This document shows, piece after piece, positions 30,713 to 59,808 of a stretch of 64,000 nt of DNA. Each line of letters opens with the position of its first letter. The first letter of the stretch is position 1. The notes under the pieces were generated by a model. That model was not told the origin of the DNA and searched no databases. It worked only from the letters and a program-made list of their open reading frames with translations. This DNA is from Patiria pectinifera (lineage: Eukaryota; Echinodermata; Asteroidea; Valvatida; Asterinidae): assembly GCA_029964075.1 (NCBI GenBank), contig CM057144.1, positions 13,415,281-13,479,280 of the forward strand, in the 5' to 3' direction. Made by a program: the position numbers and the translations under genes.

Positions 30713-32083
30713 TTATATTTCGGTTTCGCTTGCAATGGTGATAGTTTTGATATCTCCATCTCTAATTTTTTCCAGACTGTCCTCGTCTTTGCTTGGATCG
30801 CACTCAACAAGATCCACTTGATCCGGTGTTCGCTTTGTGATTTTATAAATGATCCCAGGTCTGTTGTCACATTTCACGAGAACGTCAGGACGAAATTCAG
30901 TGTTGCGATCCCAGATAATACCCCTACAATCAAACCATTTTTGTAGGCAGTCTGGTTCATTTTTTGCGGCACATTTTTCAGGTACAATGAGCCATGTCAC
31001 AAAGTTTTGACGCTGAGATACAACCCGGGCACGAAAAAGGTCATCAAGACACTCTCGAAAACCTGCTGGAAGGAAGTGGTATTCCTTTGTATTTTTCCCT
31101 TCCCTTGGGCCAATACCTGTTTTTGTCCCATCCACTACCTGTTTAGTTGTCCGCGTATCACGGATCACTGCTGAGATCATTATCCCACATTTCATTGTTC
31201 TCACCCGTTCCCATACCCACTTCAGAACTTCTTCTTTATTGAAGAGGATATATTCAGCCCTTGAAGGTATAGAACAGAAGTTCATGTAAAGCATGTCAGT
31301 TTCCCCCAGCTCAATTTCCAATATATCATTGAATTCGCATGTCACGGACTCGGGGAACAAATGCTCATGGAAGCAATGACACTCCTTGTCATTATCGACT
31401 ACTACAAACTCATATGAGTCTGGATCTAATTTTTGCTTAATCATCGCATCTACGATTGACAGGAGCATCCTGCCATGACCATCCAACAGGATTACCTTCT
31501 TGGAGTTGCGTCTTGTCATTTCTTCTACCAACTTGTTTGCCCGTTTGTGTTGGTCATTATACTCATTCATATTTGTTTGTCTGGAGTCAAATACTTCAAA
31601 GAGTGTCCCTTTAAATCCCATTTCCCCATCCACCATGTTATTGACAGGGTGCAGTATTGAGTGAAATTGACGGAGTGAACCCTTCCGAAGTCGCAGACAA
31701 ACATCTGGAGCCAGTGCTTCTATCACCTGAATATCCCCAAAAGTTGGCTCAAATTTTCCAACTTTCTCTTTACTTTGCTTATGGACATGCAGTTTCATCA
31801 TTAATTCGATTGCACCACGGGCCTTTTGTCGTGCTTTTTGTAACTCCTGACTTTGTTTGTCTAGTGGTTTGTCTTCCAACTGCCAAGACAGTGCAACACT
31901 CTCTTTCTGAATCTTCTCCAGCTCGTCCAGCTTCTCTACCTCATCGAGATGCTGGATTTGTGTCACAAGTATGCACCGAGAGCATAGCTCATCTTGACCA
32001 GGTACAAAGGAGGGGACAGATTTATAACAGCTTTTGCATTTATTTCCCCCATGTTGCCTGGTACCAGGGTAAAATGATGCCAT
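30713..32083 (-). CDS. Array paralogue 1 (C-terminal type A), zinc-ribbon plus methyltransferase-like protein
   Basis: Intronless, 456 residues; family not recognised by name. N-terminus has CKSC...CSRC (two CxxC pairs, 14 residues between), shorter than its sisters because 'NSDNP' is missing. A charged helical linker (about 45-100) follows. The core carries LRKGSLRQFHSILHPVNNMV, LLDGHGRMLLS (glycine-rich loop-like), VVVDNDKE (acidic end of a second strand) and DMLYMNFCSIPS, an arrangement resembling a Rossmann-fold methyltransferase; that is inference. The C-terminal type A module is shared with paralogue 4 (WLIVPEKC, YKITKRTPDQVDLVE). A second in-frame open stretch follows the stop. Promoter: TATAAA 192 bp upstream. 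Strong start context. Confidence 0.85.
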   Translation of the reverse strand: MASFYPGTRQHGGNKCKSCYKSVPSFVPGQDELCSRCILVTQIQHLDEVEKLDELEKIQKESVALSWQLEDKPLDKQSQELQKARQKARGAIELMMKLHVHKQSKEKVGKFEPTFGDIQVIEALAPDVCLRLRKGSLRQFHSILHPVNNMVDGEMGFKGTLFEVFDSRQTNMNEYNDQHKRANKLVEEMTRRNSKKVILLDGHGRMLLSIVDAMIKQKLDPDSYEFVVVDNDKECHCFHEHLFPESVTCEFNDILEIELGETDMLYMNFCSIPSRAEYILFNKEEVLKWVWERVRTMKCGIMISAVIRDTRTTKQVVDGTKTGIGPREGKNTKEYHFLPAGFRECLDDLFRARVVSQRQNFVTWLIVPEKCAAKNEPDCLQKWFDCRGIIWDRNTEFRPDVLVKCDNRPGIIYKITKRTPDQVDLVECDPSKDEDSLEKIRDGDIKTITIASETEI

Positions 32084-32274
32084 TGTAATGATGGGATGTA
32101 TATATCTTATTTGCTAAGCTAAAGTGATTTGCGCAAGAAAGCTTTGGCAATTACAACAGTACTAATCTCCAACTTCTATGACTTCCCAAACTACCGGACT
32201 CGTCAAGGTAAAGGGTGAAGCTAGGGCGTATGTATATCGGCCAAATGATGCAATGTCACTATCTTACCAGGCTG

Positions 32275-32280
32275 TTTATA
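32275..32280 (-). promoter_or_regulatory. TATA box of paralogue 1
   Basis: TATAAA on the minus strand in ACTATAAACAGCC, followed about 20-45 bp downstream by GTGACATTGCATCATTTGG, which is conserved at the other copies. Confidence 0.6.
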
Positions 32281-32792
32281 GTACCTACGGATGAAGTCCG
32301 GGTAGTTTAATAGACTCGCAACTCAGCACTGTAATTCACTGTTTTTATGTACATAAATCAATGTACGTGTATACAAATCCTCCTAAAATGTAAACTCCAT
32401 ATTTTATGATAAATCATCAGTTTCACTTTACATGGGGCCTCCTGTCCTTATAATGTGAAAATGAAAATCTATGTTGAATTCCGAAGGATAAAGACTTCTT
32501 AACCAAAAGTGCACAGGGAACTGAATTTCACTTTTCAAATAGCAATAAATCAAGAAGCTTAAACAGTTTGTCTTGAGTACTATAAAATGGAAGAAACTTT
32601 CCTCACTGATAAATGCGAATAATCAGATGATTTTTTTTTTTAGACCTGTTCGTAGTACAAAAACTATCTTGAGATACCTTAGAAGTACATACATGTAATA
32701 CAAATCTGTCAACAGGTATAAGATGGTACGGTTGAGTAGAAACTATACACTGCCAAAACAGGCTCCTGTGGGTTGTGGCGTCGTTTACTCAC

Positions 32793-32845
32793 ATAAACCT
32801 TGCTGCTGGAAATGGTGGCTACATTCACGAAGTCATTAAAAACAT
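32793..32845 (-). other. Exon-like block B, unit 1
   Basis: 53 bp between acceptor TATTTCAG and donor GTGAGT on the minus strand. Phase-1 reading gives VFNDFVNVATISSSKVY. All four units keep both splice sites, and unit 4 differs by an in-frame 3-bp change. Confidence 0.45.
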
Positions 32846-33902
32846 CTGAAATACAAACGGCATGAAAAATAAACATAATTCAGTGGCGTATGGCAAGGTC
32901 ATGTTGATTGGGGGAGCGGGGTGTTAGACGTGAAAATGGAAACTCGCCGTATTCGTGCTGAAAGTTTGAATCAGGGGGCGGAGGGGGGGGGGGGGTAAAG
33001 GGCTTTACACGACACCACTAGAGTGATTGGGCAATTGGTGGCGCTTTTCATGCGCCAAATAAAAAAGCGCCGTGAGAAAATTAGGCCCTCGTGAAAACAA
33101 ACTCCAAGTTTTTCACGAGCGCCCCCAATTTTTTTATGCGAGTATTCACAAGCTTATAGGCACTCGTGAGAAAAGGGCACTCGTTACAATATACCCCTTC
33201 CCCATTAAAGATGATGATGACATTTTCACAGAGAACATAACATGACTAAAGAGTATTATAACATTTGAGACAAAAACAATACTTGGGGTGGTAAAATAAT
33301 ACGGTAATTGAAAAAGGGAACAAATTCAACACAAAAATGCACGACAGAAGCTTGATAAAATTGACAAATTAACTTTCCTACCAAAGAAATTGGACTGAGT
33401 ATGTGCAAGTAGCATCTTTTAAAAACAAAATATCTTTTAATAACACAAATACTCTACCTGATAATCCCTTGAATACATGTAGTTCCGGTTTTCTGGATTT
33501 AATTTGCGCAAGACAGACTATGCCAGCTATTCTCTCATTGTCCAAAATCACCAGAAGACTGGGGAAAAATCAATTAAATGGCTGTTTAAAAAGTGTTGTT
33601 TTTTTTTTCTCATTAAAGTAACATTTTTCATTACCATTACAGAAAGTGTTTTTGTTTTTTACAAGCAGTATACTTTCGGTTTGTCAAGTGAAATTTGGAA
33701 CAAATATTGGCCCAAAGCTTTACCATAATTTTTGTTTCAACAATTTCATCAAAATATGAAAACATCAATTCTGCAATCTATACTAAAATGAATGCATACT
33801 ATTTTAATGTTGTAGAGGAAAAGAATAGTTGTTGCAAGGGAAAACATGACCTTGGGGCCCTCTGTTCTCATAAATCATTTTGTCTCTTCCTGGTAAACTC
33901 AC

Positions 33903-33984
33903 CACCATTACTGTTCCATCTCCATTGATGATAAGATAGCCATCTTGGTCTGGTACCCTGTCTAGATTATGAGGTCCAGGCCCA
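33903..33984 (-). other. Exon-like block A, unit 1
   Basis: 82 bp with acceptor ...AGAG and donor GTGAGT. Spliced after block D it reads GPGPHNLDRVPDQDGYLIIN and continues open to the donor. Conserved in units 2 and 3. Confidence 0.4.
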
Positions 33985-34621
33985 CTCTATACATGCAAAG
34001 AAATAATAACATCGTGCGTAACATTAACAACCAGGCAGGGCATGTATGTAGGCCTACACTTGTATTAGAGATTATTGATATGTTAATGTAATGTGTGGAT
34101 ATTCACAATATGTTGCAATGTGTGGATATTCACACTGATCAGTTGATTGTGGTATGTCGGTTGATCATGCCGACACTAGTTGATCCTGCTGCCATCGGTC
34201 GATCAATGTTTCTTTTCAATTCGTGGCTCTTGAGGAAAGTTTTGAAAAAAAGGAAGTATTTCTTTCTTTGTTAAAATTTCCTACAAAATAGACCAACCAT
34301 GCAAGTGATAGCGCAGATCATAAGATCTTTGGTGCAGATGCATTGATTGCGCTCAACACACACACACAAACACATACTAATCTAAAACAATATAGTTGGG
34401 GAAACAGGTAAAATTAGTAGAGAGTTGACAGTGTTAGGCTAATCTCAAAGAAAAAAGAAGGAAAAAAAAAAGGAAAATGAGAATTACCGTCAACTGTCTA
34501 CACCGAGAACATGCGTATCATATAATTATACCAGCAGCTTATTAAAAAACGGCCTGGTATCATTTGTAAAAACTGACTGAACTTGGATTCTACAAATCAT
34601 GGAGGAATAAAGTTTACTTAC

Positions 34622-34704
34622 CAGCCTTCAAATGAACAAGGAACAGCCAGTGCAGAACTTATGCCAACGCCTAGCCCCACTGATATGATGTGGCATGGAT
34701 TGTG
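34622..34704 (-). other. Exon-like block D, unit 1
   Basis: 83 bp with acceptor ATGCGCAG and donor GTAAGT. Open reading includes VGLGVGISSALAVPCS. The phase-2 exit fits block A at 33984. Confidence 0.4.
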
Positions 34705-36349
34705 CTGCGCATATACGATACGGTGCAATAATAATATGCAGGCCAACCAACGCCCAAATGAACAAAAATTGTTTTGTTTATTCAAATTCAATGTCTGGTT
34801 GAATGAAATTTCAATAGGGCTTGTTGCTCCTAAGGTTGCAGACCAGTAAATAGGCCCCAAATTGCCTACGCCGGCCAAATCACGATTTGCATGCCCTCAA
34901 AATCTTCAGTATTTGAGAGTATTGTGGGCCATGAACTTGAGGGTTTGTAAAAAATATGGGTGAAAGCCGTGCACAGGACTGGGAGCTTGCAGTTGTGTGT
35001 AATTTGGATGTAATTTGGACCCTAAAAGCGCTCTATTTTTTGCAATGGAGTGTAGCCATCGTTTTTCAAAATGGCGATGGGCTTCAGGACTATTTTAAGG
35101 GGTGATCATCTTCGGATGGAAGTTTCTCCTAAAAGTCATCAGTTGACCCCCCGGAAATTGAAACAGAAAATGAAAGGTGATGAAATAAGCTTTAATTTGA
35201 TGTGTGTCTCGAACACCTTGGAGAGTTGTAAGTATTTTTCCCGAATTTCTGAAGTGGGAGCATTCACCATTAGGGTCTATGGAAGTTTATTTACTGGTCT
35301 GCTACCCTAATGATGCCAAGGCCGACTGGCCTTTAAAAAAAGTAGTTTCTCGATTAATTGGGCTTTTTGAAAAATGAAGGAGGCATCTCCCTTTTTCCCC
35401 CAATGCGAAAGGCGGATAATTTGTTAAAAATGTTGGAAATAAATATAAGAAACTATTTGGACAAAATTTGCAAAACAATATGGTGTAAAGGTAAAAATCA
35501 CCGGAAAAGAAAAGAACAAAAAGGGCAGTGAAAAAAAAGAAAGAAGCGGGCCGACAGGGACGAGATACTAGTTTCTTTTTTTCACTTGGCCTATAAACAT
35601 CATTGTCATGACTGTGTACGTGTGCTGTGCACGTGAACCGTGGTGAACTTAATGTATTGTATAAACAGGTATGCTGTTTTTTTCTGCCACACACTAAAAA
35701 ACTATCATAAATATAGTAACCATTATTTTTGAGAGACTCTCAACTGCGCGTGCTGCTTCCAAATATTCAAGTTAATAGCAGTATGCTAGAAGTAGAAATA
35801 ACATTTATAAAATCTGACCCAAAAACATGCCAACATGTCTGCAGATGCCGCATCCACATGTAACTGTGTGTTTTGAATTTATTTACTTGTGTTGGGGTCA
35901 AAGATCCTATCTTTGGTTGGGGCATATAGTTTTAATATAACTTTATGGGATGGGCCGATGGGGTCGTTTACAGAAAAGAACTTGACTTCACACTGAGAAA
36001 TCCCGTGAAATTTCTCACACTGGGAAATCCCCCTATATCACGCTTTGCGCTATCGCGGTGTATAGAAAACCTGAGTACAGTGCAATAATGTATAGGCCAC
36101 TATACCCATGCCCAAATACAAATGATAGTGTTTTTTTTCCATATTCAATGGTTGAATGGGCTCGTTGCTCCTAATAATGCCAAGCCCAACCGGCCTTTAA
36201 AAAAAGTAGTTTCTCGATTGGGCTTTTTGAAAAATGAGGGAGGTGTCCCCCCCCCCCCCCAATCCACCGAAATCCATAATTTTGCCATGCAGAAAAAATG
36301 TTGGTGGCCAGTGAGTGCATTAGAATCCACCAGTTAGGCGGGAGTAAAT

Positions 36350-36560
36350 CTGTTGAGATCCTGAATCCATCAAAGTCCCCCAACTGCTCACGGGAGGTAT
36401 CCTGAATCCATCAAAATCAAAGTGCACGTACCACTAGGCTTCATGTCCTGAATCTATCAAAATCCCTCAACTTTTTCAATATGGAGGTATCCTGATTCCG
36501 CCGAAATCCTCCAAAAACAGGCATGTGGATGTTGATGGATTCAGGTACGTATTAGGGTTA
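36350..36560 (+). repeat. 'Cctgaatccatcaaaatc' repeats, unit 2 boundary
   Basis: Four to five degenerate repeats of GATCCTGAATCCATCAAA / GGAGGTATCCTGA. An equivalent block lies at 45430-45640. Confidence 0.75.
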
Positions 36561-36974
36561 GTGCTTGAAACTGCATTTGACCAAATATTTGGATATTTGA
36601 AACTGCCAGCTACAACTGCGTACAGAGTGCGCCAGTTAAAACATTTGCATGCCGCAATTGATATGGGTTGCTGGAGTGTTTTGCACTAAGTGTTTTATAA
36701 ATGCCAAGGGCTTTAACCTGCAACATTTGTAAAAGCAAGGGAACAATGAACTGCGTCAACAAAAAAGGGCAACTGACAATAAGTGGCAAATTTTCCTTTT
36801 TAAATTTTTTTAATTTATTTTGGGTTTAAGAATATTCCAACTGGCAAAAAACTATGGTTGATGATCGAATATCTCTTCTTTGAGGGTCCGTAAGTTATTG
36901 TGTTGGAAAATGCTTTTGAAGCTTAACATTATTACTATTTATACACAAATTAATATTTACATTTTATAAAGAGT

Positions 36975-37480
36975 AAAACATACTACATGTACGATTTCAT
37001 GAACAATTACAATGAACGCCGCAGAAAACCTGTTCTTCATATTTATAAGAACTTATAGTGATCCAGGAAAAAAATTATATACATTTTATGAAGAGTAAAA
37101 CCATCATGAACAATTACATGTACAATGAAACTGGTACTTTACACTCAAAAGAAGTATCTTGATCCAGCTAAAAAATGATATAGGCTATACATTTCACCAA
37201 GAGTAGGATTTACATACATGTACGTTTTCATGAGCAAGTTACAATGACCGGTACTTTACATTGATGAGAACGTATCTTGATTACATTTTGTAAAGAGTAT
37301 AAGACCTACAGGTACGTTTTCATGAACAATTACAATGAAAGCCGTAGAAAACCGGTACTTTACATTGATAAGAACGTATCTTGATTACATTTTGTAAAGA
37401 GTATAAGACCTACAGGATACGTTTTCATGAACATTACAATGAAAGCCGTAGAAAACAGGTACTTTACATTGATAAGAAGC
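36975..37480 (+). repeat. 103-bp minisatellite, unit 2
   Basis: Same unit as in units 1 and 3, about five copies, ending at TATCTTGACC, the intact form of the site that is disrupted by an insertion in unit 3. Confidence 0.88.
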
Positions 37481-39303
37481 TATCTTGACCACGTAATGGT
37501 CAGGTCACAAATTTTACAAAGGGGAAGAGAGTATATAATACGTCTCAAATCAACTACGTCTATGGCAAGCAACCCAAAGCATCACCTATTTACATTGTTA
37601 AGCACATACATGTAGATGTATAACGTATGTGCCTAAGTCACTTACACCTTCGGCAGTTCCATATGTTGTAATGACATTTCAGGTTCTTCAGTTTAATCCA
37701 TATCAAGATTCTAAAAATTAATGTGGCCTGACGTTGCGAACTTAGCAAGTTCTTCTTCAGAGGCTAAAACAGATATCAAGATTGTCAAGTTCATTTGTTA
37801 TTAACCCGAAAACAAGTATGTTCTGTTGTGATGTGAGGGATGACCATTAACTAGAATTAACTCGCATGTATGAACAGAAGAAGGTTGGTAAATGAGTTTA
37901 TCATTTCTACACCATTCTACACAATAAACAATCAAATCATCCTGATTTTGGTATTTGTGCTTGCAGCAGCAACCGGGTACGACGACCCAATGTTTTAATT
38001 ACATCTTTCAATAATTCGAACCTTTAAAGACTTGATAGTATTTACAGAACTATCATCTATTATCTAGGGGTAAGAGCCTTTCATTATAGACACGTTTAAG
38101 TAATCAATTAATTATACAGAATTATACCTGAGACAACACTCGTTTTTGCAATTGTTATGATTATTTCTAAATATTCGTACCCAATTTGATATTATGTTTA
38201 GTCTCATCGCTGTGATGACTACCAGGTACGACAGTGTTTTAATTACGGTCATTCAATAATTTGAACCCTTAAAGACGTCTTGATGGAGACAATATTTACA
38301 GAACTAGGGTCTATCATTTAGGCGTAAGAGCCTTTCATTTAGCATATTTGCGAAATCAATAATAGAATTAACCTTGAGACTTCCCTCCTCTTTACAATTG
38401 TTATGGTTATTTCTGAATATTCGTACCACATTTGATATTATATTAAGGCAAGCTTTTCAGAACCATCTTTTTTGGTTTTGTACAATACCAAATACCTTCC
38501 GCTGAGGATAAATCACGCATACTATGGTGCAAGTCTATTCAGACTTGTTCGCGTTCTGAACGCATTAGATCGCTGGAACAATTCTAGCATCTCATCTAGT
38601 AGATCTGATCTTTATGAATCTTACTGCCAACCTGCAAATCTCGTTTTATACCTTCGTCAGAAACTACTCCAACCATACCTTGATTGCCACTTGTGGATTT
38701 CATTGAACCTTTAAGCTTTACAGAACTTTTCTTAAGGCTTCAGAGCCTTTAGCCTTTAACTATTCTTAATTGAATAATCGCAAGATACCACTCGTCTATT
38801 ACATTATGGCTGTTTCTAGATTTGTACCCCATTTAACATTGCTGTGTTGACTGCCAGATACGAAAAACCAAAACCATATTTGGAAAAATGGAAACGTACA
38901 CCTGAACTATGCAAGACAACTCCTTCAGGCAAGGGTAGCAATGTTCGTCTCTTATTAATACTGTTTGAGACACTGAACAACTATGAAATTACAACCAGAC
39001 TTTACAACTGTGTTAAAAATTGTGTGTTGTCGTTGCTGCTCGCAAGCGTGAAGTGATCTACCTTCAATCCAACCACGCACACATTCCTGTGCCACTCCTA
39101 TTCAAATTACCCGCCCTTAACCACTCTACCGTGTTTCATTTACATATCAATGATAAAGCAGATTTATTCTAATTCGTCCCGGTACTCAACCGAATAAATC
39201 AATATGTTTAAAAATGCACACGCCCATTACGCGCCGTACTGATTACAACCTGTACTGGTTGTGTTTGTTGAATACTAGTAATATTGCGTTTATCATAGAC
39301 GTG

Positions 39304-39579
39304 CAAGGGCGGATCGTATGTGACTGTATGTGACATCGCAATTAAGGCAGACAATGAGTACACCACCATGTTTTCCTAAGGAAAACATTGGTTAAAGTGG
39401 TCAGAAATTGCCTCAGATCGCACCCGCACAGAGCATCTCGATTCCAAAAACATTTCGGGGCCCTTAAGCGGGCCCCGAACCCCACGCCGTAATTCTTTTG
39501 ACCCACTTTTTTTTTGGGGGGGGACCAAAATTTGTTGGCCCCCCCCCCCAAAAAAAATTGTGTTCTGGATCCGCCCTTG
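39304..39579. mobile_element. hAT-type MITE ('CAAGGGCGGATC' family) in unit 2
   Basis: Starts CAAGGGCGGATC, ends CTGGATCCGCCCTTG, and is flanked by the 8-bp duplication TAGACGTG (39296-39303 and 39580-39587). Unit 3 retains the uninterrupted site near 48050-48062. Confidence 0.9.
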
Positions 39580-39799
39580 TAGACGTGTTGTCTTGATCTA
39601 AAGTTGATTACAGACTGTATCCCTGCTGGGACAATTTTTTACGTCAGATCCTTCAATAGCAGGGGCGTAACTGGGGTGAAACGTCTGGGGGCACCTAGGG
39701 GTGCACACATTTTTCAAGGGAGCACCGAAAGTAAATGAACTGCGGCTTGCCTTTTTCGTGTTTTTTTTTACTCGCATGATAAAGGCCAACCTGCATGTA

Positions 39800-39895
39800 T
39801 ATCAAGGGCAGATCCATTTTTTTTTTGGATTCTAGATGCTCTGTGGCGCGATCTGAGGCAATTTCTGATCACTTTAACCAATTTCTTTTTTAGGC
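39800..39895. mobile_element. Older fragment of the same MITE family, shared by units 2 and 3
   Basis: 'caagggcagatcca' then 'tctagatgctctgtgg' and 'gatctgaggcaatttctga'. The corresponding piece in unit 3 (about 48275-48480) is longer, so it predates the unit 2/3 duplication and was then partly deleted in unit 2. Confidence 0.65.
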
Positions 39896-40272
39896 ATCGA
39901 CTACTATACTAACGGCGAAATCGATGTGTTCTTGAAATTCACAGTGCATCGACATTATATGCGTAATCACTGCGGACGTAGTTTGTCCAACAGTTGTGAC
40001 ATGACAAAAGTGTAAATACATTGGCATACGCGTACGTAATAATACAGGATGATACATTATTGCCTTTAGATACATTATTGCCTTTAGATACATTATTGCC
40101 TTAAAATATGAACATCAGTCCAAATGCTCATTTCGACAGCGCGGTGTACAATGTTTGTTCATTTTGAAGAGTTCAAAATGGGGACACCGGGTGGGAACGG
40201 ACCCGTGGCCCCCCGTACTTGCGACACTGTTCAATAGGCGTAAGCTTTAGTGCACGTGAATCTGTCGGTAAT

Positions 40273-41640
40273 TCAATCTTTCCATACTTTAACATGCCTG
40301 ATATCTTTCTGCCCTATACTCGGACCATTGCCGGGATGTTCCACTAGATATACCATAAGTGGTGTTCGCTTTGTAATACGATATTTTTGATCAGGATTTT
40401 CAACCCATCTTACACAAACACCAGGAACCAATTCAAGTCTGTAATCCCAGTTTATCTCATTATATCCAAACGCGTTTCGTAGAATGTTTGGGTCATTTCT
40501 TACTACACAGTTTTCAGGTCTGATAAGCCATGTCTTAAAGTTTCCACGCGCAGACACTTCCTCACCACTAAAAAGTTTTTTGTCTAAAAGGCAGGTCTCA
40601 AAACCCACCGCACGAAGGTGATAATCGTATATGTCTATTCCTTGACATGGGCCAATAGCTGTAAATATCCTGTCTCTTTGGTCGACCTTTGTCCGCGTAT
40701 CACAGATCACTGCTGAGATCATTATCCCACATTCCATAGTTTTCATGCGTTCCCATACCCACTTCAGAACTTCTTCTTTATTGAAGAGGATATTTTCGAC
40801 CCTTGATGGTATACTACAGAAGTTCATGTAAAGCATGTCAGTTTGCCCTAGCACAATTTCCAATATATCCTTGCATTCGCATGTCACTGACTTGGGGAAC
40901 AAATGCTCATGGAAGCAATGACACGCCTCGTCATTATCGACTACTACAAACTCATATGAGTCTGGATCTAAGCCTTGCTCAATCATCGCATGTATGATCG
41001 ACAGGAGCATCCTGCCATGACCATCCAATAGGAATACCTTCTTGGACTTGCATCTTGTCATTTCTTCTACCAACTTCCTCGCCCGATTGTTTTGGTCATT
41101 GTACTCATTCATATTTATTTGTTTGGAGTCAAATACTTCAAAGAGTGTCCCTTTAAATCCCATTTCCCCATCCACCATGTTATTGACAGGGTGCAGTATT
41201 GAGTGAAATTGGCGGAGTGAACCCTTCCGAAGTCTCAGACAAACATCTGGAGCCAGTGCTTCTATCACCTGAACACCCCCAAAAGTTGGCTCAAATTTTC
41301 CAACTTCCTCTTCATTTTGCTTTGGGACATGAAGTCTCATCATTAAGTTAATTGCACCGCGGGCCTTTTGTCGTGCTTTTTCTAATTCAAGAGTTTCCCT
41401 GTCTGGTGGTCTGTCTTCCGACTGCAGAGACAACGCGTCAACCTTTTGTTGAATCTCCTCCAGCTCATTATGCAGCTGCTTTACCTCATCGAGCTTCTCG
41501 ATTTGTGTCACATGCACACACCGAGAGCACATTTCAACTTCACCGGGTATAAAGGAGGGGACCAGTGGGTTGTCAGAGTTTTCACACATTGCGCATTTAT
41601 TTCCCCCATGTTGACTGGTACCAGGGTTAGATGATGCCAT
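40273..41640 (-). CDS. Array paralogue 2 (C-terminal type B), zinc-ribbon plus methyltransferase-like protein
   Basis: Intronless, 455 residues. CAMC (16-19) and CSRC (38-41) form a zinc-ribbon-like pair, with a Glu/Lys-rich helical linker at 45-105. The core at 114-312 has LLDGHGR (204-210), VVVDND (232-237) and DMLYMNFCSIPS (268-279), placed like the SAM-binding loop, acidic strand end and motif IV region of a methyltransferase; catalytic function is unproven. C-terminal type B (about 320-455) has WLIRPENC and a small beta-rich tail, PGVCVRW...YRITKRTP...YLVEHPG, that could be an SH3-like barrel. The N-terminal 60 residues are almost the same as paralogue 4, but the C-terminus matches paralogue 3. 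It ends 31 residues earlier than paralogue 3. Confidence 0.87.
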   Translation of the reverse strand: MASSNPGTSQHGGNKCAMCENSDNPLVPSFIPGEVEMCSRCVHVTQIEKLDEVKQLHNELEEIQQKVDALSLQSEDRPPDRETLELEKARQKARGAINLMMRLHVPKQNEEEVGKFEPTFGGVQVIEALAPDVCLRLRKGSLRQFHSILHPVNNMVDGEMGFKGTLFEVFDSKQINMNEYNDQNNRARKLVEEMTRCKSKKVFLLDGHGRMLLSIIHAMIEQGLDPDSYEFVVVDNDEACHCFHEHLFPKSVTCECKDILEIVLGQTDMLYMNFCSIPSRVENILFNKEEVLKWVWERMKTMECGIMISAVICDTRTKVDQRDRIFTAIGPCQGIDIYDYHLRAVGFETCLLDKKLFSGEEVSARGNFKTWLIRPENCVVRNDPNILRNAFGYNEINWDYRLELVPGVCVRWVENPDQKYRITKRTPLMVYLVEHPGNGPSIGQKDIRHVKVWKD

Positions 41641-41818
41641 GGCGCAATGGGATGTTGATCTGATTTGCTAAAGTGATTTGCACAATATAAACCTTTGCAA
41701 TTTAACAGTATGGCTTTCCCAACTTATACGACTTCTAAACTTAGCTCGATCTCATCAAGATGTATGAAGCTAGTACCGGTATGGCCAAATGATGCAATGT
41801 CACTGTCTTACCGGGCTG

Positions 41819-41824
41819 TTTATA
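41819..41824 (-). promoter_or_regulatory. TATA box of paralogue 2
   Basis: TATAAA (minus strand) in GTTGTATAAACAGCCCGG, about 180 bp before the ATG, followed by the same GTGACATTGCATCATTTGG element. Confidence 0.55.
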
Positions 41825-42170: not shown

Positions 42171-42223
42171 ATAAACCGTGCTGCTGGAAATGGCCGCTAC
42201 ATTCACGAAGTCGTAAAAAACAA
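42171..42223 (-). other. Exon-like block B, unit 2
   Basis: Same length and splice sites as unit 1; reads VFYDFVNVAAISSSTVY. Confidence 0.42.
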
Positions 42224-46587: not shown

Positions 46588-46595
46588 TCTTGACC

Positions 46596-48920: not shown

Positions 48921-50381
48921 TTAAGAGTTGAAGGGGAACCGGGTGGGAACGGACCCGTGGCCCCGTACGTACTTACAACCCTGGTCAGTAGGCTTTAGCT
49001 CCAGTGCACATGGATCTGTCCATACGTTAACATGCCTAATATCTTTATGCCCTATACTCGGACCATTGCCGGGATGTTCCACTAGGTATACCGTAAGTGG
49101 TGTTCGCTTTGTAATACGATATTTTTGATCAGGCTTTTTGTCCCATCTTACACAAACACCAGGAACCAATTCAAGTCTGTAATCCCAGTTGATCTCATTC
49201 TGTCCAAACGTGTTTCGTAGAATGTTTGGGTCATTTTTTACTACACAGTTTTCAGGTCTGATAAGCCATGTCTTAAAGTTTTTACGCGCAGACACTTCCT
49301 TACCACTAAAAAGTGTTTCGTCTAAAAGAAACGCCTCAAAACCCGCCGCACGAAGGTGATAATCGTTTATGTGTATTCCTTTACATGGGCCAATAGCTGT
49401 AAATATCCTGTCCCTTTGGTCGACCTCTGTCCGCGTATCACGGATCACTGCTGATATCATTATCCCACATTTCATAGTTTTCATGCGTTCCCACACCCAC
49501 TTCAGAACTTCTTCTCTATTGAAGAGGATATTTTCGACCCTTGATGGTATACTACAGAAGTTCATGTAAAGCATGTCAGTTTGCCCCAGCCCAATTTCCA
49601 ATATATCTTTGCATTCGCATGTCACTGACTGAGGGAACAAATGCTCATGAAAGCAATGACACTCCTTGACTTTGTCAACTACTACAAACTCAAATGAGTC
49701 TGGATCTAAGCCTTGCTCAATCATCGCATGTATGATCGACAGGAGCATCCTGCCATGACCATCCAATAGGAATACCTTCTTGGAGTTGCATCTTGTCATT
49801 TCTTCTACCAACTTCCTCGCCCGTTTGTTTTGGTCATTGTACTCACTCATATTTGTTTGTTTGGAGTCAAATACTTCAAAGAGTGTCCCTTTAAATTCCA
49901 TTTTCCCATCCACCATGTTATTGACAGGGTGCAGTATTGAGTGAAATTGGCGGAGTGACCCCTTCCGAAATCTCAGACAAACATCTGGGGCCAGTGCTTC
50001 CATCACCTGAACATCCCCAACAGTTGGCTCAAATTTTCCCACTTCCTCTTTACCAGTTTGCTTTGGGACATGCAGACCCATCATTAATTTGATTGCACCG
50101 CGGGCCTTTTGTCGTACTTTTTCTAACTCCAGAGCTTTTTTGTCTGGTGATTTATCTTCCAACTGCAAGGACAGCGCGCCAACTTCTTGTTGAATCTCCT
50201 CTAGCTCGTTATCCAGCTCCTCTACCTTATCGAGCTTCTCGATTTGTGTCACAAGCACGCACCGAGAGCATAGCTCATCTTGACCGGGTATAAAGGAGGG
50301 GATCAGTGGGTTGTCAGATTTATTACACTTTTTGCATTCATTTCCCCCATGTTGACTGGTACCAGGGTTAGATGATGCCAT
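48921..50381 (-). CDS. Array paralogue 3 (C-terminal type B), zinc-ribbon plus methyltransferase-like protein
   Basis: Intronless, 486 residues. CKKC...CSRC motif; its N-terminal variant GQDELCSRCVLVTQ pairs with paralogue 1 rather than 2. The core keeps LLDGHGRMLLS, DMLYMNFCSIPS and SILHPVNNMV, but the acidic strand end is VVVDKVKE instead of VVVDND, so one presumed cofactor-binding position differs. The type B C-terminus is nearly the same as paralogue 2 and extends a further 31 residues (...PTDQGCKYVRGHGS...). Starts at an ATG in GCCATGG context. Confidence 0.86.
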   Translation of the reverse strand: MASSNPGTSQHGGNECKKCNKSDNPLIPSFIPGQDELCSRCVLVTQIEKLDKVEELDNELEEIQQEVGALSLQLEDKSPDKKALELEKVRQKARGAIKLMMGLHVPKQTGKEEVGKFEPTVGDVQVMEALAPDVCLRFRKGSLRQFHSILHPVNNMVDGKMEFKGTLFEVFDSKQTNMSEYNDQNKRARKLVEEMTRCNSKKVFLLDGHGRMLLSIIHAMIEQGLDPDSFEFVVVDKVKECHCFHEHLFPQSVTCECKDILEIGLGQTDMLYMNFCSIPSRVENILFNREEVLKWVWERMKTMKCGIMISAVIRDTRTEVDQRDRIFTAIGPCKGIHINDYHLRAAGFEAFLLDETLFSGKEVSARKNFKTWLIRPENCVVKNDPNILRNTFGQNEINWDYRLELVPGVCVRWDKKPDQKYRITKRTPLTVYLVEHPGNGPSIGHKDIRHVNVWTDPCALELKPTDQGCKYVRGHGSVPTRFPFNS

Positions 50382-50562
50382 GGCGCAATGAGATGTTGAT
50401 CTTATTTGCTAAAGCGATTTGCACAATATAAACCTTTGCAATTTGACAGTATGGCTTTCCCAACTTATACGACTTTTAAACTTAGCTTGATCTCATCAAG
50501 ATGTATGATGAAGCTAGTACCGGTATGGCTAAATGATGCAATGTCACTGTCTTACCGGGCTG

Positions 50563-50568
50563 TTTATA
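50563..50568 (-). promoter_or_regulatory. TATA box of paralogue 3 (locally duplicated)
   Basis: TATAAA on the minus strand about 182 bp upstream. A second 'tttatacaaccaacaga' copy about 20 bp further upstream duplicates the TATA segment. Confidence 0.55.
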
Positions 50569-50918
50569 CTACCAACAGATATTTATACAACCAACAGATT
50601 AAGTCCAGATGATTTTACAGACGGGCAACTTAGCACGCTGTGATTCACTCTGATTCACAAAAGTGCCTTGGGAATTGAATTTTGTTTTACAAACAGCAGT
50701 AACTCAAAAAGCTTAAACAGTTTGTCTTGAGTACTAAAACATGGAGGAAACTTTCATCACTGACAAATGAGAATAATCAGATGATGTTTTTAGACCTGTT
50801 CGTAGTACAAAATGAATCTTTAGATACCTTAGTATACTATCAACAGGTACTATCTAAGATGGTATGGTTGAACTGCACCAAAAGAGGCTCCCTGTGGTTG
50901 TGGCGTCGTTTACTCACA

Positions 50919-50971
50919 TAAACCGTGCTGCTGGAAATGGCCGCTACATTCACGAAGTTGTAAAAAACAAC
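50919..50971 (-). other. Exon-like block B, unit 3
   Basis: 53 bp; reads VFYNFVNVAAISSSTVY with conserved splice sites. Confidence 0.42.
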
Positions 50972-51978
50972 TGAAATACAAACGAAATTTGAAAATAAAC
51001 ATAATTCACTGATGTAGCAGGGTCATTTTGATTGGGGGGGGGGGGGGTTAGACGTGAAAAGGGAAGCTCGCCATATCCGTGCTGAAAGTTTGAATCGGGG
51101 GCGGGGGTGTAGAGGGCCATACACGACACCATTGGAGTGATCGGGCAATAGGTGGCGCTTTTAATGCGCCAAATAAAAAAGGGCCACGTGAAAAAAGGCC
51201 ATCTTGAAAACAAACCGCACTTTTTTTCACGAGTGCCCTAAAGGTTTTCACGAGCATTCACAAGGGTACTCGTGAAAAAAATACCCCCTCCCCACTAAAG
51301 ATAATGATGATGATGATGACATTTTCATAAAGCACATAACATTACTTTTAAAAGTTATAACATTATGAGACAAAAAAAGGGTAATTAAAACAGGGAACAA
51401 ATCCTACACAAAAATTCACTACAGAAGCTTGATAAAATTGACAAAATTAACTTTCCTACCAAAGAAATTGGACTAAGTATGTGCAAGTAGCATCTTTTAA
51501 AAACAAAATATCTTTTAATAGCACAAATAGTCTACCTGATAATCTCTTGAATACTGTAGTTCCGGTTTTTCTGGATTTAATTTGCGCAAGACGGACTATG
51601 CCAGCTATTCTCTCATTGTCCAAAATCACCAGAAGACTGGGGAAAAATCAAATAAATGGCTGTTTAAAAAGTGTTGTTTTTTTCTAATTAAAGTAACATT
51701 CTTCATTCCCATAACAGAAAGTGTTTTTGTTTTTTACAAGCAGTATACTTTCGGTTTGTCAAGTGAAATTTGGAACAAATATTGGCCCAAAGCTTTACCA
51801 TAATTTTTGTTTCAACAATTTCATCAAAATATGAAAAACATCAATTCTGCAATCTATACTAAATTGAATGCATACTATATTAATGTTGTAGAGGAAAAGA
51901 ATAGTTGTTGCAAGGGAAAACATGACCTTAAGGTCCTCTGTTCTCATAAATCATTTTGTCTCTTCCTGGTAAACTCAC

Positions 51979-52060
51979 CACCATTACTGCTCCATCTCCA
52001 TTGATGATAAGGTAGCCATCTTGGTCTGGTACCCTGTCTAGATTATGAGGTCCTGGCCCA
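51979..52060 (-). other. Exon-like block A, unit 3
   Basis: 82 bp, open frame DRVPDQDGYLIINGDGAVMV, donor GTGAGT. Confidence 0.4.
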
Positions 52061-52244
52061 CTTTACCTGCAAAGAAAAAAATAACATCGTACGTAACATT
52101 AACAGCCAGACAGTGCATGTATGTACACTTATAAGAGATTATTCATGTTGCAATGTGTGGATATTCACAATCGGCAATCGCACTACACTAATCAGTTGAT
52201 CATGTCAGTTGATGATGCCGACATCAGTTGATCCTGCTGCCATG

Positions 52245-53390
52245 GGCGTCAATCCTGGGGGAGGGAGGGAGGGGAGGGGACATGTCCCCCCACTTTTGAA
52301 GGGTGGGGGACACAATATCAAATGTCCCCCCCCCCAGATTTTTGAACTCGTGTCTCATTTACAGGGCCCTATTATGTACTACAATGTATCTTTTGCTTAG
52401 AAAATATTGGATAAAGTGGTCAAAAATTGCCTCAGATCGCACCACAGAGCATTTAGAATCCAAATTTTTTTCAGGGCCCTTTAAGCGGTTCCCAAACCCT
52501 ATGCCTAATTTAGCTTAGAAAACCTCGAAAATTATGTTTAAATTATCATCTTTTGCTAAGAAAATTATTGCTTAAAGTGGTCAGAAATTGCCTCAGATTG
52601 AACCACAGAGCATTTTCAATCGAAAATTTTTCGTGGCCCTTAAGCGGGCCCTGGACCCTATGCCTTTAGCTGAGAAAACCGCTAAAATGATTATGTTTAA
52701 ATTATTATCTTTTGCTAAGAAAATATTGGTTAAAGTGGTCAGGAATCAGAGCATCTGGAATCAATTTTTTTCGGGGCCCTTAAGCGGGCTCCGAAGTCTG
52801 AACCACAAATGTCATGCCTATAGCTCAGAATACCGGTAGCTGATTCAATGACTCCAACCTCGAAAACGATGTTAAAAATAATTATCTTTTGCTAAGAAAA
52901 TATTAGTTAAACAATGGGAGAAAGTGGTTAGAAAGTGGTTAGTGTTTCAGATCACACCACAGAGCATCAAGAATCCATTTATTCGGGGCCGCGTAAGGGC
53001 TTCGCGCTCAAATCAGTTCTGATAAAAGTATATGTCCCCCCAAGGGCGAATCAATAACACACTTTTTTCGGGGGGGGGGGGGCAAAAACAATTTTGGTCC
53101 CCCAGAAAGTGGGTCAACAAAATTATGCCGTGGGGTTCGGGTCCCGCTTTAATGGGCCCCAACATTTTTTTTTTTTGATTCTAGATGCTCTGTGGTGCGA
53201 TCTGAGGTAATTTCTGACCACTTTAACCAATGGTGTTTTTTTAGGAAAAGATGGTGGTGTACTCATTGCCTGCCTTTATTGGGACGTCACATAAACAAAA
53301 ATTGGTTTCGTTTTTTTTATGGGGGGGGGGGGGTGGCCCCCTTTTCCCCCCCGGATCCGCCCCTGTGTCCCCCCCCCCCCCCCTTGCGAT
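52245..53390. mobile_element. Composite, nested transposon insertion in unit 3
   Basis: Interrupts a sequence that is continuous in unit 2 (near 43515-43530). Contains G/C homopolymer runs, 'GGATCCGCCCCTG' ends and four to five degenerate 160-180 bp repeats (words 'cttttgctaagaaaat', 'gcctcagatcgcacca'). No coding sequence. Confidence 0.7.
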
Positions 53391-53785
53391 GCCATTAGTC
53401 GATCAATGTTTCTCAGTTTTCAATTCGTGGCTCTTGAGGAACGTTTTGAAAAAGGGAAGTATTTTTTTAGATTTCCTGATAGACCAACCATGCAAGTGAT
53501 AGCGCAGATATGCATTGATTGCGCTCAACACACACAACACATACTAATCTAAAACAATTCAGTTGGAAAAAAAGGTAAAATAAGTAGAAAGTTGACAGTG
53601 TTAGGCTCATTTCAAAAAGAGAAGAAAAAAAAATTAGAAAATTGAGAATTACCGTTTACTGTCTACAATGAGTACATGCGTGTCATACCAGCAGCTTATT
53701 AAAAACAGCTTTGTTTCATTTGTAAAGACTGACTGAACTTGGATTCTACACATCATGGAGGAATAAAGTTATACGTACAACTTAC

Positions 53786-53868
53786 CAGCCTTCAACCGAA
53801 CAAGGAACAGCCAGTGCAGAACTTATGCCAACGCCTAGCCCCACTGGTATGGTGCGGCCTGGATTGTG
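53786..53868 (-). other. Exon-like block D, unit 3
   Basis: 83 bp, open frame including IPVGLGVGISSALAVPCS, acceptor ATGCGCAG and donor GTAAGT. Confidence 0.42.
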
Positions 53869-54754
53869 CTGCGCATATAAGATACGGTGCAATAATATGC
53901 AGGCCAGCCAACGCCCAAATGCAAACAAAAATTGTTTTTTTTATTCAAATTCAATGTCTGGTTGAATGAAATTTCAATAGGGCTTGTTGCTCCTACTAAT
54001 GCCAAGGCCGACAGGCCTTTTAAAAAAGTAGTTTCTCGATTATTATTTTTTGGGCTTTTTGAAAAATGAAGGAGGCGTTCCCATTTCTTCCCCCAATGCG
54101 AAAGGCGGATAATTTGTTCAAAATGTGGGAAATAAATAAAAGAAACTATTTGGACAAAATTTGCAAAAAAATAAATTGTAAAGGTACAAATCACCGGAAA
54201 AGGAAAAGAACAAAAAGGGCAGTGAAACAAAAAAGAAAGAAGCGGGCCGACAGGGACGAGACACTAGTTTCTTTTTTTCACTTGGCCTATAAAAATCATT
54301 GTCATGACTGTGTAGGTGTGCTGTGCACAAAGTCATGAACCGTGGTGAACTTAATGTATTGTATATACAGGTATGCTGTTTTTTTCCATAAATATAGTAA
54401 CCATTGTTATTGAGAGACTCTCAACTGCGCGTGCTGCTTCCAAAGATTCAAGTTAATAGCAGTATGCTAGAAGAAGAAATAACATTTATAAAATCTGACC
54501 CCAAAACATACCAACATGTCTGCAGATGCCGCATCCAGTGTGTTTTTCATTTATTTACTTATTTAATTCTTAGTTTAACTGCGTAGCACATTCAGTGGAA
54601 TCCACTGGTCTCCCATGGGGCCCAGTAAAGAGAAGACAATGCAAAGCAATTACAGTTTTAGACGTGGGACGGTGGGAGGAAAAGCCCAGAAGAATATTCT
54701 GAGGAGAACCCCACCGAATCAGGTAGGGACTGCAAACCCAATCCGCATATTGGC

Positions 54755-54830
54755 CCAGGCGGGAATCGAACCCGGGTCACAACGGTGGAAGGTGAGGAAA
54801 GTAACGCTACGCCAACAACCTGACTCCCCT
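54755..54830 (-). repeat. tRNA-like SINE head
   Basis: Reverse complement has 'gtagcgttactttcc' and B box GGGTTCGATTCCCGCC. No anticodon arm can be assigned with confidence. Confidence 0.45.
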
Positions 54831-55469
54831 ATCATCCATAAAGCGTTAAGCGCAATACTCGTCATTATAGCAAATCTACTCTTTGTGTTGCGGGCGTCAT
54901 ACCCCCCCCACCACGGTTTTCGAGGGGAAATGCTCAAGAATAGCACACTGCATTTTGAATGTGCATGTATATTCCAACGGAGAAATCATACTTCCATCTG
55001 AATTGTCAACATTTTAGCAAAATATTTTTGAGACTTTTCGCCTTCAATACTCTTACAGAATGAATACTTAATAGAGTGAGTGCATTCGAAATGCATATTT
55101 TTGTTTTGCAAATAAAAGTCGGGGTGCAACACTCATTATTATTCTTGCAGTTTATTACTGGAGTTTGACGGGAACAGCCAGGACTGGAAGATGATTTTTT
55201 GTCAGGCTTTCTCTCATTATGGGCAGTAATATCACAATATCACTATATCAAAATATAACGTGTGAAGAGGCTTTGCAATTTGCTTACACTCACCAGAAAT
55301 CACAAGAATAACCCCATCACATTTGCCGTGAGGAATAAGTGGGGTAACTATACGGGGAACACCCCCCCCCCCCATCTTTATCTCCATCTCCATTGTTGAA
55401 GTCAGCAAAATATCCTGCCGAATACATCAACGCTAACTTAAGAACCCGAGAATTTCCGTGCCCCCCCCC

Positions 55470-56345
55470 CCCCACCTTGAAATCTTGAAATGAACAAAAA
55501 GTATACACCGCGCAGGGTGACCGTAAGGTCAGAGCCAAATTCTGCTAAATGCACATCAAAAATCTGTCAGATTTATCAAAAATCTGCCAAATGCCTCAAA
55601 ATACACTAGAAACACTTAAAATCACAGGCAGTTTGTTAGTATTGCCTTAATTAAGATTCAAATTACATAATAAACAATCTAGTCACTTAAAGATGTTGTG
55701 AAATTATTGGTAAATTTCGGGCAAAATGCGGATCCGGCCCACAACGAAGTCCGTTTCCCAGTGAACCTCAGCACTTAGGATTGCAGCTTTTTTAAAGAAC
55801 ATGTACACTTTTTTGTTCAAATTTGCTGTTTTTCTGTCAACCATTTTTGCAGAAATGTGCCAGAAATCTGCCAAAAAATCCATTCTGTTAAATTTTCTGT
55901 CAAACTCATTTTTTTACAAAAGTTCTGTCAAAGTTAGCCGAAAATCGGCTAAAACGGTCACCCTGACACCGCGCTGTCGAAATAAGCGCCTGGAGCGTCT
56001 ACGCCAATGTACTATGTATTTACACTCATGTCATCATGGCAAAACTTTAGGCAAACGACGTCCGCAATGATTTCACGCATGGTTGTATAAATGTCGAGTG
56101 CATGCACATTTCGCTGCGCCGTTAGTACATGTACAGTACGGTTGTTGATGTGTTGTACAAGTTTTGAAACAGTGAATGCCATACTATACTGAGCGGGTAT
56201 TTTCAAGAAATGTCTTCCCCGTGAGTATGTTCTTCATACTAAGTTTATAAGCTGATTTTGTAGCTGTTCGTAATTTCATTTCTGCATTTATTCTTGGGAG
56301 TGTGCTGTGCTAGTTGAGGTACTGGCCCTGCTCCAAGAAGGCCTA
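55470..56345 (+). repeat. Inverted orphan copy of the paralogue 3' flank
   Basis: Reverse complement of the region downstream of paralogues 2/3 (about 40130-40170 and 48480-48900): 'gaacaaa...caccgcg', 'ctgtcgaaat', 'gaaatgtcttccccgtgag', 'ttataagctgattttgtagctg'. Split by a MITE at 55513-55965. No coding part of the paralogue is attached. Confidence 0.8.
55513..55965. mobile_element. hAT-type MITE ('CAGGGTGACCGT' family)
   Basis: CAGGGTGACCGT / ACGGTCACCCTG termini with exact 8-bp duplication ACACCGCG (55505-55512 and 55966-55973). The intact site is present, in reverse, at about 40138-40147. The interior is rich in 'aaatctgccaa' repeats. Confidence 0.92.
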
Positions 56346-57429
56346 TACATTTGTATTGTCATTGAGAACAAAAGTCGCTGTTTCAGTCATACAAAACAAT
56401 TGCTGAGATACTGTGATAGGTCTAGGCCTATAGCTTGAGTATCTTCCAGCGAGTACATGCCTTGCATGCTCATGGGGAATTCTAATTAGCGTTGGAGTGC
56501 AAACTTTGTTGTATCCGCAGAATCAAAACACTGTCTCTAACTTGAAAATTGAACGGACTCCACAAAACCCTTTTCCGTAAAGCAAAACAGAAAAATCCAG
56601 TAGTGGTAAGACGGCAAGTTTGTACAAATTTATTTTACCGTGGTTTTGTCTTTTACAATGGGTCCGAGTAGTTTGGCTATAACTATCCACCATTTACAAA
56701 AATTCAATTTGAAGATACATGTATAAGCTAGTCTGACGCAATATTTCTAATGTTCAAAACAAAGTTTATAAAGTAATGCCTTCTCCCACGGAAAGACGAG
56801 AATTCTCTACTTCAGGTTTCCCAGACAATTAATGTGATTGCATAGTCAATACAAAGAAAAACTTAAAGGCTTCTCTTAATCTCTAATACATGATTCCTAG
56901 ACCGAAGCAATTACTTTCGCATCTGCAATTTATCTTCACAATTAATGCACCTGTAAGACACACATTATTTAATTGATATACAAAAATATGCACATTGACC
57001 TTAAGATACAATTTATGTCGATTTGTACTTAAAGTGACATAAATATTCAAGCTATGAATTCACATCTTTGTAGTAAAAAACCGGGCATTTGAATACACAC
57101 TGTTTGTCTGAATTTGTCATTTATTTAATAAAATACAAGAAAACACTACTTTTTTTAAGGAGTAAATGTTGGAATGTTATGATCGGAGTCACCAGCAGAT
57201 AACCCTGTGACCTTAAGATAAAACATAAGTTTGTTTATAATTATAGCTCACAACTTATTGTTGTTATGGAATCACATGTACATCAAGTATCCTGGTTCAA
57301 TCCCGACTCATATGGAGTATTCTAAACCCTGTTCTATGAGTGACCCGCGAATGCAGTGTTCTCGGGGTGTCGATCACAAACGTCCAGGCAAAGTAAAGTG
57401 CGTGTGGAGTACAACTGGACGAAAACATT

Positions 57430-57560
57430 AAAATCACGTCATTGGAAAACCGTTCTCGTGTTCTTTTTACACGAAAACGGGGTTTCGATACGCCATGGGA
57501 CTCAATTAGGTGTGTGTGGCCCTGGGCAAGACACTTTATCACAATAACGTGTACTTCTCT
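57430..57560 (+). repeat. SINE-like element, unit 4
   Basis: 'ggggtttcgatacgccat' and 'ggccctgggcaagacactt' as at 29765-29935, at the equivalent position of unit 4. Confidence 0.55.
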
Positions 57561-58157
57561 CCATAGAGGAAAATATTCCGAAAGATATGAGTGATCGCAG
57601 AGAATGTGCTACGTCGCACTGATATCCAACAGTTGCATTAAATTATGATATCACAAGTTTGCAATGACTAGTTGTTAGTGTATTTGTATAAATTGCTAAA
57701 AAGCTTCGCTTACTGTAACAAGCATGGCTATGTACATATTTTATAAAAAAAAAATTACGGCATACGTTTAAATGAACAACTATGAAAGTTATAAAAATGT
57801 ATAAAAGTTATAAAAATCTCAACACGTGGAGGCTACATTATCAACTCTGGCTGTACAACAATGTACTTCTTACTATATATTAACATATCAGTGACGCATG
57901 TAAAGAAGCAGACATAAAATCAATAAATTGTCATGCAGTGCTCAAATTAATTGTGGCCCTCTGTCAGCCAAGTCACTGTGTATAAATCTGCCAATTGGAA
58001 TATCCCAACTGTCATTATTTCTTGTCAGTTTTGGAGCCACCACTGTTTTGATCAAAGATCAGTTTCCTTGCAACCAACCAATAATCATCCTCATAAGTAA
58101 CTACATGTACATGTATACTATAATCACCATGGCCATCACAATATATTGATAAACATC

Positions 58158-59630
58158 TCACTGGCTGTCAATCTCGAAAATGTCCTGGTCTGTACAGCCT
58201 ATTGTGAGAAAGTCCTTCATATCAGTTTCCAATGCAATGGAAACATTTTTGATATCTCTGCGAACTTCTTCCAGACCGTGCACTTTTTCGACTGGATCAT
58301 ACTCTACAAGATCCACTCGATCTGGTGTTCGATTTACAATTCGATAAATTCTTCCTGAACTTTTTTCACATTTCACGAGAGCACCAGGATAGAATTCAAC
58401 GTTGCGATCCCATTCAATGCCTTCATCCTTAAACCAGGATTGTAGGCAGTCTGGTTCATTTTTGGTGGCACACTTTTCAGGTACGATAAGCCACGTCCAA
58501 AAGTTGTGACGCCGAGACACAACCTTAGCACCAAAAAGGTCTTCAAGACACTCTCGAAAACCTGCTGGAAGAAGGTGGAATTCCTTCGTATGTTTGCCTT
58601 TCCTTGGGCCAACAGCTGTTAGTGTCCCTTTGTCTATCTGTGCCTTTGTCCGGGTATCACGGATCATTGCCGAGATCATTATCCCACATTTCACATGAGT
58701 TTTCATGCATTGCCATGCCCACTTCAGAACTTCTTCTTTGTTAAAGAGGATATTTTCAACCCTTGATGGTATGCTACAAAAATTCATGTAAAGCATGTCA
58801 GTTTCCTCTAACTCAATGTCCAAAATATTCATGCATCTGCACGTTACTGACTTGGGGAACAAATGCTCATGGAAGCGATGACACGCCTCGTCATTATCGA
58901 CTACTACAAACTCATACGAGTCTGGATCTAAGCCTTGTTCAATCATCGCATGTACGATCGATAGGAGCATCCTACCGTGGCCATCCAATAGATATACCTT
59001 CTTGGACCCGATTTTTTTCGTTGCTTCTACCAATTTCTTTGCCCGTGTGTTTTTGTCCGTGTACTCCTTCTTGTTGGTTTTTTTTTCGGACCCAAATACT
59101 TCAAAGAGTGTCCCTTTAAATCCCATTTCCCCATCCACCATGTTGTTAACAGGGTGCAGTATTGAGTGAAATTGACGGAGTGAACCCTTCCGAAGTCGCA
59201 GACAAACATCTGGAGCCAGTGCTTCTATCACCTGAATATCCCCAAAAGTTGGCTCAAATTTTCCAACTTCCTCTTTACCACTACTACTACTAGTTTGCTT
59301 TGGGACATGCAGACCCATCATTAATTCCATTGCACCGCGGGCCTTTTGTCGTACTTTTTCTCGTACTTTTTCTAACTCCCGAGTTTCCCTGTCTGGTGCT
59401 TCGCCTTCCAACATCCCAGACACTGTATCACCCTCTTGTTGAATCGTCTCCAGCTCATTATGCAGCTGCTTTACCTCATCGAGCTTCTCGATTTGTGTCA
59501 CATGCACACACCGAGAGCACATTTCAACTTCACCGGGTATAAAGGAGGGGACCAGTGGGTTGTCAGAGTTTTCACACATTGCGCATTTATTTACCCCATG
59601 TTGGCTAGTGCCAGGGCTAGGTGATGCCAT
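58158..59630 (-). CDS. Array paralogue 4 (C-terminal type A), zinc-ribbon plus methyltransferase-like protein
   Basis: Intronless, 490 residues, the most diverged copy. The N-terminus (NKCAMCENSDNPLVPSF, GEVEMCSRCVHVTQ) matches paralogue 2. The linker is longer, with a repeated 'VREKVRQK' and a Ser run (TSSSSG). The core retains LLDGHGRMLLS, VVVDNDEA and DMLYMNFCSIPS; the segment before it (GSEKKTNKKEYTDKNTRAKK) is more basic than in the others. The type A C-terminus (WLIVPEKC, YRIVNRTPDRVDLVE) agrees with paralogue 1 and extends to ...IGCTDQDIFEIDSQ. TATA box 173 bp upstream; start context GCCATGG. Confidence 0.87.
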   Translation of the reverse strand: MASPSPGTSQHGVNKCAMCENSDNPLVPSFIPGEVEMCSRCVHVTQIEKLDEVKQLHNELETIQQEGDTVSGMLEGEAPDRETRELEKVREKVRQKARGAMELMMGLHVPKQTSSSSGKEEVGKFEPTFGDIQVIEALAPDVCLRLRKGSLRQFHSILHPVNNMVDGEMGFKGTLFEVFGSEKKTNKKEYTDKNTRAKKLVEATKKIGSKKVYLLDGHGRMLLSIVHAMIEQGLDPDSYEFVVVDNDEACHRFHEHLFPKSVTCRCMNILDIELEETDMLYMNFCSIPSRVENILFNKEEVLKWAWQCMKTHVKCGIMISAMIRDTRTKAQIDKGTLTAVGPRKGKHTKEFHLLPAGFRECLEDLFGAKVVSRRHNFWTWLIVPEKCATKNEPDCLQSWFKDEGIEWDRNVEFYPGALVKCEKSSGRIYRIVNRTPDRVDLVEYDPVEKVHGLEEVRRDIKNVSIALETDMKDFLTIGCTDQDIFEIDSQ

Positions 59631-59802: not shown

Positions 59803-59808
59803 TTTATA
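59803..59808 (-). promoter_or_regulatory. TATA box of paralogue 4
   Basis: ACTATAAAAGGC on the minus strand, the best TATA match of the four. Followed by AGTGACATTGCATAATTTGG. Confidence 0.65.

Follow-up and report, generated by a model that had tools for sequence, protein, structure and literature searches.

A tandem array of single-exon sea-star genes whose proteins have a predicted methyltransferase-fold core

Four long open reading frames (ORFs), each without introns, stand at intervals on one strand of a stretch of the genome of the sea star Patiria pectinifera, and they raise two questions: how did four such genes come to lie side by side, and what kind of protein do they encode? We addressed these questions in a window of 64,000 nucleotides (nt), the whole stretch of DNA analysed (GenBank assembly GCA_029964075.1, contig CM057144.1, positions 13,415,281 to 13,479,280, forward strand). 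Our proposal, which we hold tentatively and somewhat short of even confidence, is that the four genes belong to a tandemly multiplied sea-star family whose proteins join a zinc-ribbon-like head, a methyltransferase-fold core and an SH3/KOW-like tail, and which would most likely be enzymes dependent on S-adenosylmethionine (SAM). Proteins in which binding domains are added to a methyltransferase fold are already known as a general kind; the family and its set of domains match nothing named in the libraries searched. The four copies (lengths in amino acids, aa) and the array that holds them are:

30713..32083, minus strand: copy 1 (c1), 456 aa, tail class A, with c4
40273..41640, minus strand: copy 2 (c2), 455 aa, tail class B, with c3
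48921..50381, minus strand: copy 3 (c3), 486 aa, tail class B; the structure model was made from this copy
58158..59630, minus strand: copy 4 (c4), 490 aa, tail class A, with c1
27517..61500, no strand assigned: array of tandemly duplicated DNA with a spacing of ~9 kb, non-coding DNA included (extent taken from self-match coverage)

The window has six ORFs, counted from ATG to stop, that reach 150 aa: these four and two others of 155 and 169 aa. A previous reading, made from the sequence alone, had described four intronless minus-strand ORFs with a set of shared motifs, and this description is confirmed: all are intact, and LLDGHGR, VVVD(N/K), DMLYMNFCSIPS and two CxxC pairs are present in 4/4 copies. 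Stops in the five alternative frames of each ORF number 10-44. When the copies are aligned, 32 of the 37 pairwise gaps inside the ORFs have a length that is a multiple of three, whereas in the flanks 51 of 199 do (Fisher p 3e-12; the test pools six copy pairs, which are not independent), and the five exceptions (16, 16, 16, 2 and 4 nt) all involve c3 and all come last in order. Because gaps within the ORFs, unlike those of the flanks, mostly respect the reading frame, the four copies are read as real genes under coding constraint.

Comparison of the window with itself gave matches ~9 kb apart that extend over long non-coding stretches; 35370-37490, for instance, pairs with 44457-46595 at 92%, as does 39895-43516 with 48657-52246 at 87%. 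The four copies are products of DNA-level tandem duplication of ~9 kb units. Since they sit inside such units, whose matches cover non-coding DNA throughout, retroposition of each copy separately is ruled out and did not build the array. The idea that the intronless form reflects retroposition or transfer therefore fails as a source of the four copies, and can concern only the ancestor of the first one. Three of the duplicated units each carry tandem repeats of 104-126 bp (28636-29548, 37247-37488 and 46307-46593), which are perhaps substrates for unequal exchange. The units also contain dispersed inverted and direct repeats (39329-39893, 46615-46794, 48292-48412 and 52401-53352), possibly small mobile elements.

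The copies did not diverge uniformly along their length. We counted 123 sites, up to nt 1350 of c3, at which they split two to two. The 34 sites before codon ~266 are divided 3/19/12 across the three possible groupings, whereas beyond it 89 out of 89 pair c1 with c4 and c2 with c3, a split that none of 2000 permutations equalled in strength (0/2000). The C-terminus that had been called switchable is thus borne out as a last third that falls into two classes, c1/c4 (A) and c2/c3 (B). At the DNA level, identity between the classes is 0.87-0.88 in the 40-codon window at 281 and drops to 0.60-0.67 in that at 321. In the structure model this drop falls after strand 5 and before the long helix that follows, and the class difference covers the last part of the predicted enzyme fold as well as the tail. 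Elsewhere, an exact tract of 145 nt (codons 13-61) is common to c2 and c4, and another, of 121 nt, to c1 and c4, although each of these pairs has an overall divergence of ~0.3 per synonymous site. These tracts suggest gene conversion between copies; unequal crossing-over could have produced some of them.

It had also been suggested that the family might be under diversifying selection. The ratio of nonsynonymous to synonymous rates (dN/dS) is 0.56-0.77 over the whole ORF in all six copy pairs and 0.30-0.72 in residues 119-320. Values above 1 occur in 2 of 24 pair-by-region comparisons (1.35 and 1.05; Fisher p 0.50 and 0.90). The excess of synonymous change in residues 119-320 is clear for c3/c4 (p 2e-7) and c2/c4 (p 2e-5); c2/c3 shows a modest excess over the whole ORF (p 0.02), and neither c1/c2 in residues 119-320 (p 0.37) nor c3/c4 in the last third (p 0.31) reaches significance. 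With no whole-ORF pair above 1, and with none of the 7 comparisons (out of 24) that were tested for significance reaching it, positive selection was dropped as an explanation.

How widely is the family spread? Protein searches, which detect only relatives with exact five-residue words in common, gave two: the protein LOC119723994 of Patiria miniata, an asterinid sea star, and a metagenome fragment of 289 aa (52% identity across 43% of the query). Distant echinoderm relatives may escape searches that need such words. LOC119723994 is a full-length relative (472 aa, 83% identical to c3 by BLASTP), uncharacterized and without Pfam domains in its source record. It is distinct from each of c1-c4 and mixed too: from residue 119 onward it resembles c3 (c3 segments at 0.84-0.96), while its head is nearer to c4 (57/76 and 36/40, against 47/76 and 31/38 for c3). 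Scans of bacterial and archaeal genome contigs confirmed no relative among 123 and 107 pattern-matched stretches, nor did scans of viral contigs among 112 and 217, each scan being based on two short peptide patterns and thus not exhaustive. A literature search found no title or abstract opening on this gene family, which does not exclude print elsewhere. The family had been described as lineage-expanded, which agrees with its local multiplication and with the few relatives detected; it is probably a gene family of a sea-star lineage, with its nearest named relative in P. miniata.

What the proteins might do is best approached through the predicted structure of c3, in which the following parts can be placed:

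50259..50336, minus strand: two-CxxC zinc-ribbon-like head of c3, residues 16-41, with putative zinc binding
49257..49850, minus strand: predicted methyltransferase-fold core of c3, residues 178-375, from the structure model and structure comparison
49749..49763, minus strand: D207-G-H-G-R loop of c3 after predicted strand 1, kept in 5/5 sequences reaching this loop
49545..49562, minus strand: N274-F-C-S-I-P279 loop of c3 after predicted strand 4, invariant in 6/6 sequences
49005..49193, minus strand: possible SH3/KOW-like barrel of c3, residues ~397-459, a weak match

The model contains a seven-strand Rossmann-like alpha/beta core, which structure comparison matched with Z up to 12.9 and E 3e-7; according to the comparison tool, a Z of 7-8 is the typical best for models without a clear match. 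Among the matches listed, the best by VIA-align is MnmM, with KsgA, EgtD, histamine methyltransferase and others close behind, and we take the listed matches in the Protein Data Bank (PDB) to be methyltransferases, by title or by function, and not a mixture of Rossmann proteins. D236 closes predicted strand 2, and D269 and N274-F-C-S-I-P frame predicted strand 4, in 6/6 sequences; the acidic D236 suits SAM binding. The methyltransferase-like core noticed in the sequence-only reading is thus upheld as a prediction, that of a class I SAM-methyltransferase fold, with which the modelled protein has in common an alternating alpha/beta core and an acidic residue after strand 2. It differs in its short D-G-H-G-R loop and its additional head and tail, and, among the matches listed, identity is ~5-15% and no single methyltransferase family stands out.

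Several results weigh against this placement. The model was built on six sequences, its mean predicted local distance difference test score (pLDDT) is 53.5 and its predicted template modelling score 0.50, and the four other models scored lower in mean pLDDT (46.5-37.3). Within residues 181-380, 10 of 20 ten-residue blocks average a pLDDT of at least 70, while blocks 241-250, 281-290 and 311-350 lie under 50; part of the N274-F-C-S-I-P279 loop falls in the low-confidence stretch 276-287. Superpositions by Foldseek are loose, with template modelling (TM) scores by query of 0.19-0.27 among the matches listed. Sequence profiles did not support the fold: c1-c4 had no Pfam match above cut-off, PHROGs and NCBIfam (queried with the four copies and P0002) gave weak matches only, none above cut-off or significant, and PDB sequences (queried with c3 alone, then with the A1 profile) gave weak matches only, none significant. 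The only Pfam match common to the four copies, at ~residues 173-245 and below threshold in all of them, is ANF_receptor (best E 0.0006, 19.3 against a cut-off of 25.4 bits), which points to a different alpha/beta fold and which we take as chance. The shallow alignment, the low model scores, the lack of profile support and the ANF_receptor match would all suit a core that is not a methyltransferase fold, the model having simply settled on a common alpha/beta arrangement. We think this improbable, given the run of methyltransferases among the PDB matches listed and a Z above the range typical of models without a clear match.

Even if the fold is right, catalysis is another matter. The glycine-rich loop after strand 1 of class I SAM methyltransferases is, in its textbook form, GxGxG, and the catalytic loop after strand 4 of N6-adenine/amino methyltransferases (as in DIRS-type elements) is (D/N/S)PP(Y/F/W), for example DPPY. 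Here, the first loop is the shorter D-G-H-G-R in 5/5 sequences, which also counts against the proposal and makes enzyme activity uncertain, and the second is N-F-C-S in 6/6 sequences, which departs from the (D/N/S)PP(Y/F/W) pattern. Both substitutions fit a methyltransferase fold without catalysis, used as a scaffold that binds RNA, chromatin or another protein, the partner being chosen by the tail class; so does the presence of human fatty acid synthase, aligned over residues ~1205-1409, its inactive methyltransferase-like domain, in 3 of the 50 VIA-align matches listed. We regard this scaffold as a serious possibility, if still a doubtful one. Against it, the loop residues are invariant in the copies and the P. 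miniata protein, the strand-4 loop also in the metagenome fragment, and the dN/dS of the core is as low as 0.30. Yet loop conservation favours an enzyme only weakly, because it would suit a scaffold too.

The four head cysteines (C16, C19, C38 and C41 in c3) are kept in 5/5 sequences reaching the head, and the fold of this region was modelled at low confidence. The tail match is weak, a further point against the proposal; many of its matches among those listed are small barrels of the KOW/SH3 sort, and the likeness to KOW/Tudor-type SH3-like barrels (Spt5 KOW, NusG, PHF19 Tudor, Agenet), a fold marked by a small barrel of five strands, would lie in the possible barrel at c3 residues ~397-459.

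Under our favoured reading, that of a SAM-dependent enzyme, each copy would encode in one coding exon a zinc-ribbon-like head with two CxxC pairs, a linker predicted to be helical, a core with the class I SAM-methyltransferase fold, and an SH3/KOW-like tail barrel. The core would bind SAM through the D207-G-H-G loop and D236, the invariant N274-F-C-S-I-P loop would be the active or substrate site, and head and tail would aim the core at RNA or chromatin. Gene conversion may keep parts of the head and the cofactor half alike among copies, while the last third, including the end of the core, would persist as two classes that set the partner or substrate. A bolder version, which we consider a long shot, is a new sea-star-restricted class of SAM-dependent enzymes, with a short D-G-H-G cofactor loop, an N-F-C-S-I-P active-site loop, a cofactor half kept common by gene conversion, and two interchangeable C-terminal parts, each made up of the last part of the core and an SH3/KOW-like reader, by which the enzyme would be steered to one RNA or chromatin target or another. 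Should the core prove active, the array would hold a methyltransferase-like family without a name, which joins a zinc head to an enzyme core and a reader tail and goes unrecognised by the profile libraries searched; as a single array evolving by conversion and divergence of tail classes, it would offer a compact natural set on how methyltransferases change target. An inactive core would still leave an animal gene restricted to one lineage, with a fold that could be placed by structure and not by sequence.

The ancestor of the array might also have come from a virus or mobile element, for example from a giant virus whose methyltransferase-like protein bore a chromo-like tail, with multiplication in the sea star following later and the intronless form being a trace of that origin. 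The single-exon ORFs fit such an origin. In the viral fold library the second-ranked match (E 1.1e-6) is to a giant-virus protein with a chromo-domain annotation, but it superposes poorly (TM 0.20/0.25, root-mean-square deviation 23.8). WLDYCG is a motif of a viral methyltransferase-like domain. Among 79 IMG/VR loci, one distinct WLDYCG domain is methyltransferase-like by inspection (locus L061, found again as L063), and its motifs after strands 1 and 4 line up with LLDGHG and YMNFCS as expected, WLDYCG standing opposite YMNFCS. This likeness involves a single sequence on the viral side, however, and at the profile level it lacks significance (E 0.48, probability 0.1). The non-exhaustive pattern scans of viral contigs and prokaryote genomes also confirmed no relative, and we hold a viral or mobile-element origin to be unlikely. 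The L061 domain (3321-3881, minus strand) ends an open frame of 986 residues and has no Pfam match above cut-off.

Searches for tRNAs and Rfam families found none, and among ten further hand-chosen open frames Pfam gave sub-threshold matches only for five and none for the other five. A stretch at ~15676-15762 on the plus strand passes the Pfam cut-off for TRAPP14_N (32.3 against 27 bits), and an ORF ~7 kb away (8289-8813, plus strand) matches the same family weakly, below cut-off (E 0.05). These TRAPPC14-like pieces suggest a spliced gene near the array, which lends the earlier description of an intron-rich genome the support of one gene only. The plus strand also carries, at 24343-24756, 2.4 repeats of a 173-bp unit at 93%.
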